From Alkalihalophilus pseudofirmus (GTDB lineage Bacteria > Bacillota > Bacilli > Bacillales > Bacillaceae_D), in assembly GCF_029094545.1 (NCBI RefSeq), contig NZ_CP117835.1:2274001-2338000 (forward strand): DNA of 64,000 nt, in the 5' to 3' direction. Positions 12,293-21,472 of the stretch are shown here, piece by piece. The notes beneath the pieces were generated by a model. That model was not told the DNA's origin, made no database searches, and was given only the letters and a program-made list of their open reading frames with translations. The position numbers were made by a program, and so were the translations under genes. Within the stretch, counting starts at the first letter, position 1. The number at the start of each line of letters is the position of its first letter.

Positions 12293-12363
12293 AAAGGTTT
12301 CTGCTTTAGTATATTGAATTGTGAAAAGGTGAAATATTCTAATAATTATTGGAGGTTATTCGA

Positions 12364-13782
12364 TTGAAAAAAATGAGACATGTTGTTCTTAAATCTACAT
12401 TAGCAGGCGCTTTAGTATTATCGGCTGCAGTACCTGCAGTACTTGCACATGATGCACTAGATGAGTCTGGACTTCAAAAGGGTGAGCGTATTGTCTTCTC
12501 AAATGAAGAGTTAGCCACGCTTGGTGAGGCGAAAAATGAAGGGACAGGCAAAGTGTCAAGCTTACAAGAAGCAGCATCTGTACAAATCGAGAAAATTAAT
12601 GGAGATGCTCAAAACAACACCGCTGATGTGTATGCACATAAAGGATTCGCTTATTTAGGAACACATACAGCTGGCGGAGCGAACGGCGGGGTTCGTGTTT
12701 TTGATATGAAAGATCCTTCAAACCCTGTTGAAGTAGCTGCATTTGCCAACGATGATGTTCCTGGTACATGGCAGGAGAAAGTCATTGTAAAATCAGTGAA
12801 TACACCTGAATTCAAAGGAGATCTTGCGGTTGTAAGTGTTCAGCAGCGCAATCGTAATGCCGACACTGCTGGAGGATTCTTGCTTTATGATGTAACCGAT
12901 CCATACAGTCCCGAGAAACTTGGTTTCTATGAAGTGTATGATAATACAGCAGGTACCCATGAGCTTTATTTAGCGACTCAAGGAAATCGCGCCCTAGTCT
13001 TTGCTTCAAACCCATATGCTGACTACTACAGCCACGGTGAAGAAAAAGACTTCCAAATTATTGATGTCACTGATCCTGCAAACCCTGAAAAGTTGTGGGA
13101 GTTTGACCCTCGTGATCTTCCTGAAGTAGACGATTCCTTTAATGGATACCACTGGAACGCTCCGGATGGTAAAACTAGAGCAGTATTTAATCATTCAGTC
13201 ATTACAGACAATAATGCACAATATGCATATGTGTCTATGTGGGATTTAGGAACAGTCATTTTTGATGTACGTGACCCTGAAAACCCTGTATACCTTGGTC
13301 GCACAGACTTTTCTTCTGAGCAGCAAGGTTCTGCTCACTCCGCTGCACTTGCTCGTGGCGGCAACGTCTTAATTGAAACAAGAGAAGTGTATGTTCCTGT
13401 ACGCGCGGGCTATGAAGAGTCTTATGGTTATACTCGTATTTTCGATGTGAAGGATAAGTCCAATCCAAAGCTTTTAAGTGAGTTCAAAACGGACTTAACG
13501 GAAAAAGTAGAAGATGGTACGACATTTGCCAATACTGTTCATGACCCTAAAGTACAAGGAAATACGCTTTACTTAAGCCACTATGCTGGCGGCGTGTACA
13601 TGGTAGATATTTCAGACCCAGCTAACCCAGAGCAAATTGGTCAGTATGTACCAGATCAAGGCGATGTATGGGGCGTATTCGTTGACCGAAATTACGTACT
13701 AGCTTCTGATATGGGACAAGGATTAAAAGTTCTAGTTCGTGGAAATGGGCAGAATAATGGCGGTAATACACGTACTGAATAA
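12364..13782 (+). CDS. secreted LVIVD-repeat (beta-propeller) protein
   Basis: An exported protein of 472 aa. It has a signal peptide (MKKMRHVVLKS, a hydrophobic core, then AVLA before His-Asp, cleavage near residue 28). The mature part carries six recurring DxxDPxNP blocks (for example DMKDPSNP, DVTDPYSP, DVTDPANP, DVRDPENP, DVKDKSNP, DISDPANP), the mark of LVIVD repeats predicted to fold as a propeller. Its function is unknown; it is probably an extracellular binding protein. I start it at TTG 12364, 7 bases after GGAGGT, rather than at an upstream TTG that overlaps the ribosome binding site. It is a single gene with a terminator. Confidence 0.88.
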   Translation: MKKMRHVVLKSTLAGALVLSAAVPAVLAHDALDESGLQKGERIVFSNEELATLGEAKNEGTGKVSSLQEAASVQIEKINGDAQNNTADVYAHKGFAYLGTHTAGGANGGVRVFDMKDPSNPVEVAAFANDDVPGTWQEKVIVKSVNTPEFKGDLAVVSVQQRNRNADTAGGFLLYDVTDPYSPEKLGFYEVYDNTAGTHELYLATQGNRALVFASNPYADYYSHGEEKDFQIIDVTDPANPEKLWEFDPRDLPEVDDSFNGYHWNAPDGKTRAVFNHSVITDNNAQYAYVSMWDLGTVIFDVRDPENPVYLGRTDFSSEQQGSAHSAALARGGNVLIETREVYVPVRAGYEESYGYTRIFDVKDKSNPKLLSEFKTDLTEKVEDGTTFANTVHDPKVQGNTLYLSHYAGGVYMVDISDPANPEQIGQYVPDQGDVWGVFVDRNYVLASDMGQGLKVLVRGNGQNNGGNTRTE

Positions 13783-13862: not shown

Positions 13863-14903
13863 TTATTTTGAGATACCAGCCGATTCAAAGGTAGCCATCT
13901 CATTCAGCATTCTGCATGCAGATTCAATAATTGAAAAAGCTACCGCAGCACCAGAACCTTCACCAAGCCTTAATCCCAAATTAACTAGCGGTTTCTTTTC
14001 GAGGGCTTCCACTGCTGTTAAGTGTCCTGGCTCAACCGACTGATGCCCGACAATCATGTAATCTTCACATACTGGTGCCATACGGACAGCAATCAGTGCA
14101 GCGACCGTGGAAATAAATCCATCTAAAATAATCGGCACGCGACGTTCAGCCGCACACAGCATGGCTCCTGTCATGCCTGCAATCTCAAGACCTCCTAGCT
14201 TCCTCAACACATCAATCGGATCTGCTGCATTTGCTTTTCTGTTCTCGATTGACTGATTAATAACCTCTATTTTATGCTGCAGGCGTTCATTTGTGATACC
14301 CGTCCCATATCCAACTAAATCTTTAACGGGCTTGCCAGTCAATACAGCTAGGAGCGCACTGCTTGATGTTGTGTTGGCAATTCCCATTTCTCCAAGAATG
14401 ATGCTCTCAATGCCTTCTTCAATGAGTTTTTCAGCCTGCCTTCTTCCGACCGCAATGGCTTCAACTGCTTCGTCGTATGTCATCGCATCTTCTTCTAAGA
14501 AATTACGAGTGCCGTTTCGTACCTTATCCACAATTAACGCGTCATGATCGATCTCTCCTGCTACACCAATATCTACAACCTTCAATGCAGCACCAATTTG
14601 TCTTGAAAATACATTAATCGCAGCTCCGCCATTAAGAAAGTTCATGACCATTTGCTCGGTCACTTCTTGCGGGAATGCAGAGACCCCTTCAGCAGCTATT
14701 CCATGGTCAGCCGCAAACACTAGAACGCCCGCAGGGGATACTTTAGGAAATGGATTATTTTTCATTTCGGCTAACTGAATCGCTAATTCTTCTAATCTTC
14801 CTAAGCTTCCTGGCGGTTTCGTTAAAGTGTTAATATAACCTGAAACCTGCTCGCCTAGCTCTTTATTTAGTGCTGGGATTGTTGTTGGATGTATTGTATT
14901 CAT
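13863..14903 (-). CDS. cobT: nicotinate-nucleotide:dimethylbenzimidazole phosphoribosyltransferase CobT
   Basis: CobT makes alpha-ribazole phosphate from nicotinate mononucleotide and dimethylbenzimidazole, for the lower ligand of cobalamin. At 346 aa it is full length. The catalytic Glu is present (about residue 315 in LRLGEGSGAA), as are the glycine-rich phosphate-binding stretches. No other cob gene, transporter or cobalamin riboswitch lies nearby, so it probably serves salvage, or the rest of the pathway sits elsewhere. The B12 link does not obviously fit its neighbours. Confidence 0.95.
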   Translation of the reverse strand: MNTIHPTTIPALNKELGEQVSGYINTLTKPPGSLGRLEELAIQLAEMKNNPFPKVSPAGVLVFAADHGIAAEGVSAFPQEVTEQMVMNFLNGGAAINVFSRQIGAALKVVDIGVAGEIDHDALIVDKVRNGTRNFLEEDAMTYDEAVEAIAVGRRQAEKLIEEGIESIILGEMGIANTTSSSALLAVLTGKPVKDLVGYGTGITNERLQHKIEVINQSIENRKANAADPIDVLRKLGGLEIAGMTGAMLCAAERRVPIILDGFISTVAALIAVRMAPVCEDYMIVGHQSVEPGHLTAVEALEKKPLVNLGLRLGEGSGAAVAFSIIESACRMLNEMATFESAGISK

Positions 14904-14964: not shown

Positions 14965-16350
14965 CTATTCAGCAGGAATTTCGATTATAAACGTTGTCCC
15001 CTCCCCCATTTTACTAGAAACGGAGATCGACCCGTTGTGGAGATGAATGATCTCTTTCGTAATGGCAAGACCTAAACCGCTGCCGCCAAGTTTAGTAGAA
15101 CGAGAAGAATCTACTCGGTAAAACCTTTCCCAAATGCGATCAAGATCTTTTTCGGGTATGCCTGTGCCATTATCGTGTATTTCAATCATACACCTCTGAT
15201 TTTCACGAGTTAGAGTAACATTAATTTCTCCCCCAGGTTGAGTATGACGAATCGCATTAGATACAAGATTCATTACCGCCCTCTCAAACTGTCCTCTGTC
15301 AATAAATACATACATATCATCATTAGGTGCATGAGCCTTTAAATTTAGCTGTTTTGATTGGATATCAAGCTTCAATTTTGTTTGTATTTGATCAAAAAAA
15401 CCTTTCAGATCCGTTCTTTCAACATCCAAATGGAATGAACCCTCTTCATATTTCATTAAATGAAAGAGATCTTGAACTAAATGCTCCATCCGGGAGGCTT
15501 CTTGATAAATAATGTTGGATTGCTCTTTGACTACAGGTGGTTCAAGCTGCTGATCTTTTAATAACGCGGAATAGCCCTTTATGTAAGTTAAGGGGGTTCT
15601 AAGATCATGAGAGATATTCGTTAAAAATTGCTGTCTTTCATCTCGATACTCTTTTAAACTTTTAGCCATAATTGAAATATCGGAAAGCAATATGGAGACC
15701 TCATCTTTACTAGTCGATATAGGTACGTCTACATCTAATCGACCCGAGGCAATCTCCCTAGTTAGTTCTTGAGCCTTCATAATAGGATTGGTCAGCCGCT
15801 TTGATAAATAGAAACTTACGATGACAGCTAAACACATGGCAAGGAAACCTATGCCTAATGTTAATAAGAAGATATGTTTTCTCGTCTTCTCGAAGCTTCC
15901 AGTATCTTGATCAATAAATAAATACCCTCTTTCTCCATCTATTGTCGCAAAGGAAGTGTAAGACCAAGCATGAGGGATATGTTCTTCCATTGTGTCGATA
16001 AATTCAGTTTTGATGTTCTGATGAATCTTCTTTGATATCCATAATTGGTAATTAGCTAAGACCTCATCAGAAAAATACCTCGAACTGTTGATGACTTGTA
16101 GTGATTCATCAAAAATAATGAATGTATTTTCTTCTTGCCCTGCCTCCATCATCATGACATGCGCTAAGGTTGTCTCATCAGAGTGCGCGCCTAATATTTC
16201 GGCATGAGAAAGCAGCCGGTTTTCCACGTCTTCTTGAAGTTGATGTTTATAATAAGACTTAGAAAAATGATAAAAAGATAGACTCATTACGAGGATGACA
16301 AAAACAATAGAGAAGAAAATAGCTATTAATAATTTTGTAGCCAGCTTCAC
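14965..16350 (-). CDS. sensor histidine kinase
   Basis: A membrane sensor kinase of 461 aa. TM1 spans about residues 7-27, an extracytoplasmic domain of about 125 residues follows, then TM2 at about 159-182 and a HAMP linker. The HisKA domain has the phospho-acceptor His248 in NISHDLRTPL. The HATPase has an N box (NLVSNAIRHT), DNGTGIP and GGSGLGLAI. It follows the response-regulator gene directly (stop and start abut), so the two form one operon. The stimulus is unknown; the neighbouring His/Met-rich lipoprotein suggests a metal or envelope signal. Confidence 0.92.
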   Translation of the reverse strand: MKLATKLLIAIFFSIVFVILVMSLSFYHFSKSYYKHQLQEDVENRLLSHAEILGAHSDETTLAHVMMMEAGQEENTFIIFDESLQVINSSRYFSDEVLANYQLWISKKIHQNIKTEFIDTMEEHIPHAWSYTSFATIDGERGYLFIDQDTGSFEKTRKHIFLLTLGIGFLAMCLAVIVSFYLSKRLTNPIMKAQELTREIASGRLDVDVPISTSKDEVSILLSDISIMAKSLKEYRDERQQFLTNISHDLRTPLTYIKGYSALLKDQQLEPPVVKEQSNIIYQEASRMEHLVQDLFHLMKYEEGSFHLDVERTDLKGFFDQIQTKLKLDIQSKQLNLKAHAPNDDMYVFIDRGQFERAVMNLVSNAIRHTQPGGEINVTLTRENQRCMIEIHDNGTGIPEKDLDRIWERFYRVDSSRSTKLGGSGLGLAITKEIIHLHNGSISVSSKMGEGTTFIIEIPAE

Positions 16351-17043
16351 CTAGTCCAGCTCCTCTAATGGCATTTTATACCCCACACCCCACACGGTTT
16401 CAATTAAGGGTCTTTCTATGCCAGCTTGTACTAACTTGTCTCGAATATGCTTGATATGGACATCTACATTTCGGTTGAAGCGTTCTTCTTCCTCTTCCCA
16501 TTCAAGTGTTAGGAGTTGATCTCTGGTATATACTCTTCCTGGATATTGAAAGAACCTAGAGAATAATTGATATTCTTTATTTGTAAACGGGATGACCTGT
16601 TCATTATATGTGAAAATTCTTTGAGATGGGTTCCTATTAATTCCGAACCTGCTAATAATTGTATCTTTCTCAAATAAGTGTTCTGTTCTCTTGATAACTG
16701 ATTGAACTCTAGCCTTTAATTCTCTAGGCTCAAACGGTTTTGTGATAAAGTCATAAGCGCCAAGCTCAAGACCCTTAACAACAGCTTCTGTATCATCCAT
16801 AGCGGTAATTAAAATGACCGGAATTTCTTTTTGTAATTCATTTATGCGCTTCAAAAATTCAAAACCCGTCATCTCTGGCATCATAATATCTAATAAGATG
16901 AGGTGGACATCCTCCTTGTTTAAATAAAACTCTGCCTCAATGGCGCTTGATAACGTTCTAATATCATAGCTGCTTGATTGAATGCAGAGTTCAAGTAACT
17001 TTTGCATTTCCCTCTCATCATCAATAATTATTATTTTCTTCAT
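16351..17043 (-). CDS. OmpR-family response regulator
   Basis: The 230-aa partner of the downstream kinase. The receiver domain has acidic residues Asp8/Asp9, phospho-acceptor Asp52 (LLDIMMPEMTG) and a conserved Lys in TKPFEPRE. The C-terminal winged helix ends in the typical WGVGYK motif. The gene starts the two-component operon and is divergent from the Met-rich membrane protein gene across 150 bp holding an inverted repeat, a plausible target site. Confidence 0.93.
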   Translation of the reverse strand: MKKIIIIDDEREMQKLLELCIQSSSYDIRTLSSAIEAEFYLNKEDVHLILLDIMMPEMTGFEFLKRINELQKEIPVILITAMDDTEAVVKGLELGAYDFITKPFEPRELKARVQSVIKRTEHLFEKDTIISRFGINRNPSQRIFTYNEQVIPFTNKEYQLFSRFFQYPGRVYTRDQLLTLEWEEEEERFNRNVDVHIKHIRDKLVQAGIERPLIETVWGVGYKMPLEELD

Positions 17044-17143
17044 CTATTCTCACCAATCTCTTCTTTTCGTTTTTAGACATATTTATTAAGACAAACTAAT
17101 ACTAGTGTACAAACTACCTTTTGAATAAAGGGTTATTCATTGT

Positions 17144-17162
17144 ATTTACATAGTACGTAAAT
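17144..17162. promoter_or_regulatory. inverted repeat in the divergent regulator/membrane-protein promoter
   Basis: ATTTAC and GTAAAT flank a 7-base spacer, with further flanking near-symmetry (TGTA/TACA). The site is about 35 bp upstream of the plus-strand start, a candidate operator for the adjacent regulator. Confidence 0.4.
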
Positions 17163-17193
17163 GTACATTTTGAAATAGAAGGGAGAATTCGTC

Positions 17194-17781
17194 ATGCAGT
17201 GGTATTTACTATGTCTCCTCGTCATTTTACTGGCCATCATTGGTTTTATTGTCTTTGTTTATAAATCTCATTTATCAAATATGCTCGGAATGTGCACAGC
17301 TATGGCAATTGGAATGATGATAGGACTTTCATCGGGTGTTGTCCTTGGAATATTATTTTCAGATGCCTTTTTTGAGACGACCATCATCAGCATGTTTATC
17401 GGCGCTTTAATAGGCGTTTTATTTGGCTATCCATTCTCACTTATTGCTGTAGTGGACGGATTTATCTCAGGTTTAATGGGAGGTATGATGGGCACTATGC
17501 TTGCCGTAATGGTGCCCACGCAGCATCATTTGCCACTCACTCAAGTCATGCTGCTGCTTTTAGTCGGCACCCTGTTTATTCTTTATTTAGCACTGGCTCA
17601 AGAAATAAAAAACAACACCCAAAAGACCTTATCTCTCAAGACTATCTGGTATTTCTTATTCATTTGTGCAAGCTTTATCTGTATTCATTTTATCGAAGCT
17701 CCAAGTCTCGCTCCAAATGAAGATCCCCATTCCAATCATCATCATGCTATAAAAACAACTGACCATTTAGATATCTTCTAA
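17194..17781 (+). CDS. Met/Gly-rich multi-pass membrane protein with His-rich tail
   Basis: I do not recognise a named family. The 195-aa product has about five to six transmembrane helices. The middle ones are unusually rich in Met and Gly (GMCTAMAIGMMIGLSSG, GLMGGMMGTMLAVMVP). It ends in a cytosolic or exposed His-rich tail (HSNHHHAIKTTDH). Such Met/His enrichment is typical of copper or other soft-metal proteins. It is divergent from the two-component genes and convergent with the Asp-box lipoprotein. A metal-related role is inferred from composition and context only. Confidence 0.6.
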   Translation: MQWYLLCLLVILLAIIGFIVFVYKSHLSNMLGMCTAMAIGMMIGLSSGVVLGILFSDAFFETTIISMFIGALIGVLFGYPFSLIAVVDGFISGLMGGMMGTMLAVMVPTQHHLPLTQVMLLLLVGTLFILYLALAQEIKNNTQKTLSLKTIWYFLFICASFICIHFIEAPSLAPNEDPHSNHHHAIKTTDHLDIF

Positions 17782-17789
17782 ATGGTCAG
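17759..17789. terminator. bidirectional terminator between convergent genes
   Basis: Perfect 12-bp stem CTGACCATTTAG/CTAAATGGTCAG, overlapping the stop of the Met-rich protein gene. The T run is better on the minus strand (TTGTTTTT), so it mainly serves the leftward lipoprotein operon. Confidence 0.75.
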
Positions 17790-17798
17790 CTTATTGTT

Positions 17799-18695
17799 CT
17801 ACGGAAGAAATTTTCCATTTTCCGCTAATTGCGTCCAAGTGTCTCCAAAATCACTTGTATGATAGATCGCCTCTTGCATGGAACCTAAAATGATTTCATT
17901 ATCTTGGCCTGGATGTTGACTAATATAAGAAATCATATCATTTTCTAAAGTGAAATCGAGGGACTCCCATGTTTGTCCAAAATCTTTACTGAAATATAAC
18001 CCTTCTAATTCACCTACAAAGTAGGCCATTAATTCTTCGTTATCTCCGTTTAATGATTCAAGTGCAGTCGCTGTAGAATTGCTCTCCATTTCTTCCCAGG
18101 TCTGACCGCTATCTAATGACATATACACTCCCTCTTCAGTACCAGCAAGTACATGACTAGGAAACTGAGGATGTGACGTTAAACTGTACGTATGACCAAT
18201 TGGCTCTGGCAACCCTTCTGTTTCAACCTGTTCCCATGAATAACCACCATCTTCCGAGTGATAAAAGTGAGAGTTGTACGCATCTATAGCATAAACTTGG
18301 TTTGAGTCTCCTTTATTTGCATGAAGAAGATGAAAATCCACTTCTGGATAAAGAGCAATCGGTTCCCACGTTTCTCCTTGATCGGTACTTTTCATCACCC
18401 CAAGAGGATCTTCTAAATTTGACGAGTGACTCGGGTGACCACTTGAGAGCATTGTATTCTCATCCAGAATAGCAAGACCCATAAAATCATGTTTCTCTGC
18501 TTCTTTATTTACATCTATCCACTCCCCATCTGCATGCTTAATTAACCCGTGGTGAGTAGCAACATAAAAAGCATCTTCATGATGGGCATACTCAAGTCCA
18601 TGGAGGTGAGAAAACTCTTCTACTTCACTTCCTGCAGTTTGACATCCCGCAAGGATACTTACGAAACCCGCTCCTAGTAACAACCATTTTTTCAT
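17799..18695 (-). CDS. Asp-box (BNR/sialidase-like) lipoprotein
   Basis: A 298-aa lipoprotein with the lipobox SILAGC near residue 18. Five Asp-box motifs follow at roughly even spacing (DQGETW, DGGYSW, DSGQTW, DFGQTW, DFGDTW), which predict a beta-propeller like the F510_1955-type proteins annotated as glycosyl hydrolases. No catalytic sialidase residues are evident. The mature N-terminus is His-rich (FSHLHGLEYAHHE), which may bind metal. It lies 17 bases downstream of the His/Met-rich lipoprotein gene and is probably co-transcribed with it. Confidence 0.75.
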   Translation of the reverse strand: MKKWLLLGAGFVSILAGCQTAGSEVEEFSHLHGLEYAHHEDAFYVATHHGLIKHADGEWIDVNKEAEKHDFMGLAILDENTMLSSGHPSHSSNLEDPLGVMKSTDQGETWEPIALYPEVDFHLLHANKGDSNQVYAIDAYNSHFYHSEDGGYSWEQVETEGLPEPIGHTYSLTSHPQFPSHVLAGTEEGVYMSLDSGQTWEEMESNSTATALESLNGDNEELMAYFVGELEGLYFSKDFGQTWESLDFTLENDMISYISQHPGQDNEIILGSMQEAIYHTSDFGDTWTQLAENGKFLP

Positions 18696-18712
18696 TTTAT
18701 TTCTCCTTTTGC

Positions 18713-20056
18713 TTAATGTTGACCATGACCGTCTCCATCAGCTGAGACAATCTCTAATTTTTCATCTAGTATTCCTTGTGTATTGAATGATATTGTATCA
18801 AAGGTACCTAGCAGATATCCATGATTATAAGGTCCTTCTGTTGGATCTTCCTGAAATTCAGGCTTTACTTGAGCCAAATAATTGTAAAGATCTTGAGTAA
18901 GTTCTCCTTCATCGAGCCAGATCATTGGAGCATGTTTGCCTAAATGGGCAAATGGTGCCGCTGCAATGGCGAGCTCTGGTGAGGCAGTCGAAGCAAACAC
19001 TAAGCCGTGTCCAGGTTCTGTGATCCCCCACCCAAAACCAGTCTCCGTGTCTTTAAAAGAAGCCATTTCAATTGATTGACTGACCGCATTCTCACCTTCT
19101 ATACGTACAACATCACCATACTCTTCTAGTGCGCTTACAACTGATTGATTAATCATTTCTTCTGGTCCTAACACATATATTTGGGCCGAACCTTCTCTTT
19201 GTGCTAAGGCTTCTTTTGTTTCTTCTGGAATCGTATCACTATTCACATACAAAAGTGATTCATTCATATGAGAAATCCAATTCGCTGCAGTGAGCGTATA
19301 TTCTTTTGCAGTGTCTTCCATCGAACCAATGATGACTGCCTCTTCTACAGTATCAATTGTTTTTGAAAACTCTTCTTCTACCATTTGTGCGAACGCCGCT
19401 GGGTTGTTCTCGTTAATCGTTTTCACTTCAAATGCAGTTAATTTACTTCGTTCAGACTCGCTAAGCTCCCCGACAGCTAACACTTCAATTCCTTCATTAT
19501 TACCTTTTGGATTTAGACGGTTTAATTCATTTAATACATCATCATTTATTTCCTCATCATAATAAAGAATAGGGCCGTCATTTGGATGATGTACTAAAGT
19601 TAAAGCAGCTAAAGAATACTGCCAATTATTAACTGGAGCTAAAATAACGGTGCCCGGTTGATTTTCCTCATGTGTAGAAGGCCAGATCATCTGAGATACA
19701 TGAATAGACAATGTTATCGGATTATCTTCATTTAACCTTGTAATATTTTTTGTGTTTGATACGAGTAACTGTTCGGTTGCAGCCTCGTTAAATGAATGTG
19801 GTTCCTCTGCATCATCCGTTTTTTCACCTTGATTATTATGACTTTGATGGGCATCTTCATTGGAGTCGTCACTGTCCATTTGATCATGATCCATATCACC
19901 GTGATCCATTCCCTCATGTTCTATTTCTTCGTTCATATTCTCATCCATCTCTTGTTCCATAGCAGGCTCATGGTCCGTATGCGTTTCCTCGCTGCAGCCT
20001 GCTACAAATATGGAAGCACCTAATAAGGCAGATGCTAGAAAAGTTGCTTTTTTCAT
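18713..20056 (-). CDS. His/Met/Asp-rich lipoprotein with cell-wall-binding-like repeats
   Basis: A 447-aa lipoprotein with the lipobox FVAGC at about residue 20. Just after the Cys comes an acidic region of about 60 residues with HEGMDHGDMDHDQMD, resembling the MDH-type copper-binding stretches of PcoA/CopA proteins. The rest resembles cell-wall-binding repeat type 2 modules (for example EEAVIIGSMED and SAQIYVLGPEEMI). The C-terminus is DGDGHGQH. I start it at 20056, 9 bases after AGAGAGG; upstream starts overlap that site. It is first in a two-gene operon, and a TATAAT box lies upstream. Metal binding is inferred from composition. Confidence 0.7.
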   Translation of the reverse strand: MKKATFLASALLGASIFVAGCSEETHTDHEPAMEQEMDENMNEEIEHEGMDHGDMDHDQMDSDDSNEDAHQSHNNQGEKTDDAEEPHSFNEAATEQLLVSNTKNITRLNEDNPITLSIHVSQMIWPSTHEENQPGTVILAPVNNWQYSLAALTLVHHPNDGPILYYDEEINDDVLNELNRLNPKGNNEGIEVLAVGELSESERSKLTAFEVKTINENNPAAFAQMVEEEFSKTIDTVEEAVIIGSMEDTAKEYTLTAANWISHMNESLLYVNSDTIPEETKEALAQREGSAQIYVLGPEEMINQSVVSALEEYGDVVRIEGENAVSQSIEMASFKDTETGFGWGITEPGHGLVFASTASPELAIAAAPFAHLGKHAPMIWLDEGELTQDLYNYLAQVKPEFQEDPTEGPYNHGYLLGTFDTISFNTQGILDEKLEIVSADGDGHGQH

Positions 20057-20129
20057 TATTTTCATCCTCTCTAAGTAGTTGATTATAATGTACAAGATAA
20101 ATATTAAAATTTAATTAAGAACAAAAAAA

Positions 20130-20154
20130 CACCTGAAGTTTTTCACTTCAGGTG
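20130..20154 (-). terminator. terminator of hemAT
   Basis: Perfect stem CACCTGAAGT/ACTTCAGGTG with seven T on the minus strand. Confidence 0.9.
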
Positions 20155-20161
20155 CTTTCTG

Positions 20162-21472
20162 TTAGTCAAGATGATGCGTAATCATATTCAATTCATTAGC
20201 AGTTGTTGCAAGCTGATAGGCTGCATCATTAATCTCTTCAATAACATGAGCGATCTTCTTAATTTCTTGATCGACATTCCGGTTCTGTTCTTTCGTCGTT
20301 TCTGTTTGAGTGACAATACGGTCGAAAAATTCATTCGTACTAGATAAACCATTGGCACTATTTTTAACAAGTTCATCAATGGTAGACATATAGGACGATA
20401 CAGAACCTATCCGTTCTTTTGTAGACACGATTAAGCCAGACACTTCACTTACGGACGCTTTCGTCTGCTCAGCAAGCTTTCTGACTTCACTTGCTACAAC
20501 AGAAAAGCCTTTACCCATTTCTCCTGCACGGGCTGCCTCAATCGCTGCATTTAACGCAAGTAAATTCGTTTGATCAGCAATAGATTGGACAAGCCCTACA
20601 ATATCATTAATTTTTTCTGAAACGTCTTTTAATAATTCCATTTCAGATGAAATTTTCTCCATGTATTGATCGACTTCTTTTACTTTTAAATACTGTTCTT
20701 GAAGCTTATCCTTTCCTTCTTTCGATAGGCTCTCCACTTGAGATGAGGCAGCTGTCCCCTCCGTGCTGTAACGATGCACATCTTCTGACTTTGCTTTCAA
20801 CTCGTCAATCGACGCACTCGTTTCCTCTGAGATCGCTGCAAGCTCTTCAGCAGTCGTATTCACTTTCAACTGAAGCTCGTGGCGTTCTTCAAGATCTTTC
20901 TGGCGGTTACGCTCATTTTCATTTTCATAAGCCTCAAGTACGAGCTGCTGCTCAATATTTAAAATTTTGGATACAGAGAGCATTGCATCCAGACATTCAG
21001 AAGTATCCACCGCATGCTCTTTGATCATTACTGCAATCGATGTATACAAATCTTGAAATGCACACATATACCACTTCGGCTCAAGACCAATTACTACATG
21101 CGCATGAGCAATCCGATTTCTCTGCTCTATGTAAGCGGCATCCATTTTCCCAGCAAACATTTCCTCAATATGTCTCTTCAATGTTTTCTTTAGCCGGTCT
21201 ACAGAGCTGTGATCTTCAATAATCGATGTAAGTGAAGGATTTTGATATAGATTTTTATAGAACTGATCGACAATCTCTTCAATATGCTCATGAATAAGCG
21301 GTTGGATTGCTCTAATTCGAACTAAATCTTCTTTTGTTAAATGAATCATTTTTAATTGGAGTGCCACTTCTGGTGATACATCTAGCACTACATCATCATA
21401 GGTAAGTGTATCCATTTCTTCTAATAATTCAGATTGCTTTTTACGTTGTTTAAATAACAGCTTCAACGTCAC
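20162..21472 (-). CDS. hemAT: heme-based aerotactic transducer HemAT
   Basis: A soluble oxygen sensor for aerotaxis. Of 436 aa, the N-terminal half is a globin-coupled sensor domain with candidate heme His residues around [13 protein letters not shown]. It joins a methyl-accepting signalling domain whose hairpin tip reads [25 protein letters not shown] and contacts CheA/CheW. There are no transmembrane segments, and the length matches B. subtilis HemAT (about 432 aa). It is a single gene with a terminator. Confidence 0.95.

Follow-up and report, generated by a model that had tools for sequence, protein, structure and literature searches.

A five-gene block was analyzed in the window, a 64,000-nt stretch of the genome of Alkalihalophilus pseudofirmus (contig NZ_CP117835.1, positions 2,274,001 to 2,338,000; the source genome below). 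A preliminary description of this DNA had reported a sensor kinase/regulator pair, a membrane protein (MEMB), and two lipoproteins (LP1 and LP2), and all five genes are confirmed. On the basis of sequence comparison, we consider it probable that they form an envelope cassette that responds to copper (or silver); silver and copper are inseparable by sequence. The features of the block are as follows.

14965-16350, minus strand: sensor histidine kinase with HAMP, HisKA, and HATPase_c matches and an extracytoplasmic sensor
16351-17043, minus strand: OmpR/PhoB-type response regulator (Response_reg and Trans_reg_C)
17044-17193, no strand assigned: divergent promoter region between the regulator and MEMB, with a weak match to the tandem-repeat motif (TATTCATTGTATTTACATAG) at 17134
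17194-17781, plus strand: MEMB, a six-helix membrane protein with a Met ladder in helices 2 and 4 and a His-rich tail
17759-17771 and 17777-17789: 13-bp inverted repeat (CTGACCATTTAGA/TCTAAATGGTCAG), terminator-like, read in the sequence at the convergent ends of MEMB and LP2
17799-18695, minus strand: LP2, a single beta-propeller lipoprotein assigned to the F510_1955 family by its NF045728 score
18713-20056, minus strand: LP1, a lipoprotein with a His/Met/Asp-rich linker and a three-repeat CWB2-fold domain
20066-20161, minus strand: LP1-LP2 promoter region, with a block (TCTTAATTAAATTTTAATATTTAT) that is conserved in the sister species and is a degenerate form of the motif

LP1 starts with the ATG at 20056, and GAGAGG lies 8 nt upstream of it. 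Because the LP1 and LP2 genes are only 17 bp apart, they are likely co-transcribed. LP1, LP2, and MEMB are each present as a single copy in the source genome. LP1 is 96-97% identical to its versions in Alkalihalophilus marmarensis and on the chromosome of A. pseudofirmus OF4, where the gene order of the cassette is identical to that in the window.

Co-location of the cassette genes with copper genes

We searched for LP1, LP2, and MEMB in 150 genomes of the order, and relatives of the kinase were found with a profile of its sensor domain only. The matches to this profile form two well-separated groups (E <1e-30 and E >1e-18), and the first 86 loci were accepted as true kinase relatives because of this clear separation. 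Co-location was defined as a distance within 10 kb among the genomes having both parts, and the expectation was calculated for random placement. The kinase is co-located with LP2 in 36 of 57 cases (0.35 expected), with LP1 in 10 of 23 (0.12 expected), and with MEMB in 14 of 45 (0.23 expected), and LP2 is co-located with LP1 in 5 of 15 (0.08 expected). A copper ATPase lies close to MEMB in at least 20 of 51 cases, to LP2 in at least 21 of 67, and to LP1 in at least 2 of 17, where 0.32, 0.44, and 0.10 are expected, respectively. Overall, the observed co-location among the parts, and between the parts and copper ATPases, exceeds the expectation by a factor of roughly 20-100, and linkage far above expectation is also found in 80 named loci. 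Because related genomes are not independent, binomial P values overstate the significance; the ratios are nevertheless large, and many families contribute to them.

To describe the neighborhoods, representatives of the neighbor clusters were identified with Pfam, and the P1B ATPase, CopZ, and CsoR clusters were named from sequence and followed by profile. Neighbors identified with Pfam are multicopper oxidase, the DUF326 four-helix bundle, and DsbD/CcdA-type, DUF1541 (YdhK), SHOCT, and VTT proteins. Outside the window, the parts occur in copper islands, where copZ-copA, csoR, and genes for multicopper oxidases and copper-storage bundles accompany them. On the A. pseudofirmus plasmid pBpOF4-01, the gene order is copZ-copA-LP1 with a 58-bp gap before LP1, and LP2, a cupredoxin-bearing relative of MEMB, a multicopper oxidase, a kinase-regulator pair, and a four-helix copper-binding protein are found within 25 kb. 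A Paenibacillus plasmid shows the order regulator, kinase, LP2, LP1, and genes for a multicopper oxidase and a copper bundle are close to this group. A conjugative plasmid of P. aeruginosa carries an F510_1955 protein (L154 8959-9864) after genes for a copper-binding protein and RND efflux, and the LP2 family thus reaches Gram-negative metal resistance as well. LP1-type CWB2 relatives of Halomicrobium, Halobaculum, and Pontibacter (L236, L237, and L238) lie directly downstream of a DUF4396 gene; a four-helix copper-binding protein is close to the LP1 relative in Halobaculum and Pontibacter, and a multicopper oxidase also in Pontibacter. This pairing of DUF4396 with LP1 in haloarchaea and Pontibacter is a second, different operon form.

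The preliminary description had made its copper proposal depend on co-occurrence of the parts in other genomes, and they co-occur repeatedly, inside recognizable copper islands. It had also raised the conservation of a four-part neighborhood: the parts co-locate widely, but Alkalihalophilus and its sister genome G117 are the only ones in which the intact arrangement of the window was found, and the parts recombine elsewhere.

The neighborhoods also bear on copper supply, the main rival explanation, in which the envelope proteins would catch copper for cytochrome c oxidase or other respiratory enzymes and the kinase would sense need. Some loci adjoin cytochrome oxidase genes (L125 and L098), and maturation genes of the CcdA, ResA, and ResB types are frequent neighbors. 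However, most of the informative neighbors are of the resistance type (CopA-CopZ-CsoR, multicopper oxidase, DUF326 bundles, and YdhK), often on plasmids, and the cassette in the window is not near oxidase genes. We therefore regard copper supply as unlikely, though it is the strongest of the competing explanations.

Lipoproteins LP1 and LP2

The LP1 linker behind the lipobox (residue numbering follows alignment A3; subtract 2 for the ATG at 20056) is disordered in the model, with a predicted local distance difference test score (pLDDT) <50, and is rich in His, Met, Asp, and Glu, with 8 His and 6 Met in 69 residues. The linkers of the LP1 family contain on average 9.5% His and 6.7% Met, whereas the lipoproteins of these loci, with LP1 counted among them, contain 4.3% and 3.3%. 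In the LP1 relative of Salsuginibacillus halophilus (L207 9992-11410), the linker consists of about 10 repeats of DMPMDEE/DGMPMDEE, with Met replacing His. A multicopper oxidase lipoprotein of the source genome (L136 4028-5635, minus strand; C1 ~2190028-2191635) has an inserted MDHGNMND-type repeat that resembles the LP1 linker.

The domain behind the linker is modeled with high confidence (328 of 449 residues with pLDDT >=90). LP1 matches CWB2 (PF04122) with 26.5 bits, above the gathering cut-off of 24.9, in one repeat only, and Foldseek matches its model to Cwp6, SlpH, and Cwp8 of C. difficile with E values of 1e-9 to 1e-14 and template modeling (TM) scores of 0.56-0.59 by query. According to the model, LP1 has the three-repeat CWB2 fold, and the "cell-wall-binding-like repeats" of the preliminary description are right as a statement of fold. 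Three CWB2 repeats make a pseudo-threefold tile, and binding of anionic wall polymers is known for the C. difficile CWB2 proteins (PMC8881574).

LP1 differs from these proteins in a set of histidines. All 39 sequences compared, from Bacillota, Halomicrobium, and Pontibacter, have His158, His265, His373, and His377, and all but one have His352. In the model, His158/159, His265, and His373 lie at the C-terminal end of the corresponding helix of each repeat (helices 147-161, 250-265, and 369-373), where the canonical CWB2 residues at the helix ends before the second strand are replaced by His158, His265, and His373/377. Canonical CWB2 relatives of the same order, in the same profile alignment, do not have these histidines, with an isolated exception, and they are likewise absent from the solved CWB2 structures compared. 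LP1 thus shares three tandem repeats of the fold with the wall-anchor proteins SlpA, Cwp6, and Cwp8 of C. difficile, whereas its helix-end histidines in all three repeats, kept as far as archaea, and its lipid-anchored His/Met-rich linker set it apart. The repeat histidines may form a metal site, although a single site joining all three repeats is not claimed.

LP2 is a member of the F510_1955 family (NF045728) by score (261.4 bits, cut-off 175) and clearly matches BNR/Asp-box and Sortilin. Comparison with 23 relatives shows eight invariant residues: His30, His32, His48, Asp70, Met72, His87, Asp120, and His122. The model of LP2 (pLDDT 91) puts them in two kinds of position: where the inner strand begins in three successive blades, and in the loop that links the second strand to the third in two blades. 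Because the usual propeller topology puts both positions on the same face, these residues are probably on one face, and the His, Met, and Asp side chains may make up one site.

The automatic names suggest another explanation, in which LP1 is a wall anchor, LP2 is a glycosidase, and the cassette serves to remodel the wall when the cell meets metal or envelope stress. The CWB2 fold of LP1, the resemblance of LP2 to GH74 and Sortilin propellers, and the NCBI label glycosylhydrolase are consistent with it. However, the LP1 histidines are specific to the subfamily and are kept in archaea and Bacteroidota despite their different envelopes, and the neighbors are copper genes. LP2 was rejected as a GH74-type glycosidase: it is a single propeller of 298 amino acids, whereas the GH74 matches have two propellers and >700 residues, with TM scores by target of 0.25-0.31. 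A GH74-type enzyme would also have a catalytic Asp pair, and LP2 has two invariant aspartates, Asp70 and Asp120. The F510_1955 glycosylhydrolase name implies an enzyme, whereas the His cluster and the copper neighborhood of LP2 suggest metal handling. We consider wall remodeling very improbable, and the labels "cell-wall binding" for LP1 and "glycosylhydrolase" for LP2 are probably misleading.

Conserved methionines of MEMB

MEMB shows no family match in Pfam or NCBIfam, and its hydropathy predicts six helices. The preliminary description had held the His/Met enrichment of the envelope proteins to be beyond chance. In MEMB, the Met count itself (13 in 195 amino acids) is only moderately unusual (P ~0.004), but the conserved positions exceed chance, and the argument is therefore placed on these positions. 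Met30, Met33, Met37, and Met41 in helix 2 and Met95, Met98, Met99, Met102, and Met106 in helix 4 are kept in 28-30 of 30 relatives, and another set of relatives also shows their conservation. The conserved methionines cluster on one side of each helix (P ~0.02 and 0.008).

Several relatives of MEMB have a C-terminal cupredoxin (Cupredoxin_1/Copper-bind) at the position of the His-rich tail of the window protein. No other single observation points to copper as strongly as this fusion, which also places the C-terminus of MEMB outside the membrane if the cupredoxin is extracytoplasmic as usual. Stand-alone lipoproteins of the cupredoxin type that is fused to MEMB (L138 6516-7283 and L140 4173-4829) are found in the same islands. 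MEMB resembles the CTR-type copper transporters in its conserved Met residues within helices and its Gly-rich packing, but it has six predicted helices instead of three, and MEMB and its relatives end in a C-terminal His-rich tail or cupredoxin. With no Pfam family matching it, MEMB was not assigned to the CTR family.

Kinase sensor, predicted regulator site, and proposed copper pathway

Four residues of the kinase sensor, His49, His64, Met68, and Glu69, are conserved in >=90% of 19 relatives, and the His-His-Met set suggests a fit to Cu(I) or Ag(I). Like CusRS, CopRS, and PcoRS, the pair combines a membrane kinase with an OmpR-type regulator near copper genes and has His/Met residues in the sensor, but its sensor motif is different and its putative site is a tandem repeat. 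The kinase and the regulator were rejected as members of TIGR01386 and TIGR01387, with scores far below the cut-offs (190.4 of 292.55 and 126.8 of 279.2 bits, respectively). Functionally, the linkage to copper genes and the His/Met sensor point to a copper-responsive two-component system. No library labels any part of the cassette as a copper protein, and the earlier remark that none belongs to a nameable copper system is fair.

The sensor also bears on whether the cassette responds to another soft metal, or to several (mercury, cadmium, or zinc, for example), with copper being incidental. The islands have a mixed content: zinc-type ABC proteins are encoded on pBpOF4-01 as well, and a few loci contain ArsR-P1B pairs (L121 and L132). 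However, the cupredoxin on MEMB, the multicopper oxidase, the four-helix copper bundles, and the CopZ neighbors speak for copper, and Met ladders and His-Met sensors fit Cu(I)/Ag(I). We give this explanation the least weight of all and consider it highly improbable.

A motif was sought in the upstream regions of LP1 genes near this kinase at 22 less-redundant loci. The motif found, tCTtCATanTTTCTnCAnA (CTTCAT-N5-CTnCA, a tandem repeat with an 11-bp period), scores 250, compared to 160-172 in 20 control sets built from upstream regions at these loci. It is enriched before LP1 copies outside the training set and before LP2, CcdA, multicopper oxidase, HK*, and P1B genes, and shows no enrichment before CsoR or pooled regulator genes. 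The best relevant site in the source genome, TCTTCATACTTTCTAAATAT, lies 68 bp before the multicopper oxidase. The linkage suggests that the regulator probably binds sites of the CTTCAT-N5-CTnCA type.

The comparison supports the copper (or silver) reading through the co-location, the copper islands, the cupredoxin fusions of MEMB, the copZ-copA-LP1 order, the LP1 relatives beside copper proteins in Bacteroidota and haloarchaea, the nearly invariant His/Met positions in the kinase, MEMB, LP1, and LP2, and the upstream motif. Several observations weigh against it. The csoR-copZ-copA operon and the Met/His-rich multicopper oxidase of the source genome are ~93-97 kb from the cassette on the same contig, so that the cassette does not adjoin the copper operon, and many relatives of each part sit apart from the other parts. 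The motif is not enriched before MEMB genes, and the LP1 promoter block of the window (TCTTAATTAAATTTTAATAT), conserved in the sister species, contains only a degenerate form of it (score 4.6). A simplified motif gives 14 matches across the source genome and 13 in the reversed control. The general motif was consequently rejected as proof of control at the window promoters, where the matches are weak and the simplified pattern is not enriched.

In the proposed mechanism, Cu(I) outside the membrane would bind the His-His-Met sensor of the kinase, and the regulator would then switch on the envelope proteins; its candidate sites in the source genome would include the one before the multicopper oxidase ~97 kb away. 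LP1 may keep copper at the wall side through its flexible His/Met linker and the histidines of the three-repeat domain, and LP2 may bind copper on one propeller face as a carrier or a catalyst. MEMB, with a methionine ladder across the membrane and a His-rich outer tail (cupredoxin in relatives), could pass or hold copper and would complement CopZ-CopA. We infer copper binding by each protein, the transport direction, and induction by copper from these comparisons, as we do the "storage at the wall" and "passage" of the preliminary description. A joint reading goes further, and we put it at somewhat less than an even chance: LP1 would found a copper-binding CWB2 branch, in which the repeat histidines may form a metal site, LP2 and its F510_1955 family would be copper propellers, and MEMB would be a new methionine-ladder copper conduit, all within an extracytoplasmic copper system for periplasm-less cells with a dedicated kinase and a definable DNA site.

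Copper resistance in Gram-positive bacteria is understood mainly through CsoR-CopZ-CopA, while the sensing and holding of copper outside the membrane are much less clear. The CsoR-CopZ-CopA export system is a frequent neighbor of the cassette parts, and LP1 can directly follow copA; it acts in the cytosol and the membrane, whereas the cassette would act outside the membrane under its own regulator. A search of titles and abstracts on the cell-wall-binding repeat, BNR, and DUF4396 with copper, with most of the subscription literature outside its reach, returned no description of LP1 or MEMB, and the parts of the cassette therefore look undescribed. They would provide three families that are widespread but unstudied, with defined residues as mutation targets, and also a sensor motif in the kinase and a site predicted for the regulator; the copper reading would correct the misleading automatic names "glycosylhydrolase" and "cell wall-binding repeat protein" on many genes of copper islands and plasmids. 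The named strain A. pseudofirmus OF4 has the block in its chromosome, and a plasmid adds a second LP1 after copZ-copA, so that a test organism exists.

Three further genes lie near the cassette. Directly upstream of LP1, a gene at 20162-21472 (minus strand) encodes a protoglobin with a methyl-accepting signaling domain (a HemAT-like soluble oxygen sensor), and it is kept in this position in Alkalihalophilus and G117. On the other side, a secreted propeller protein of the LVIVD/choice-of-anchor-B type (12349-13782, plus strand) is a conserved neighbor of the cassette in G117. Between this gene and the kinase lies a DBI_PRT family (CobT-type) phosphoribosyltransferase (13863-14903, minus strand), which stands without other cobalamin genes among the open reading frames viewed.

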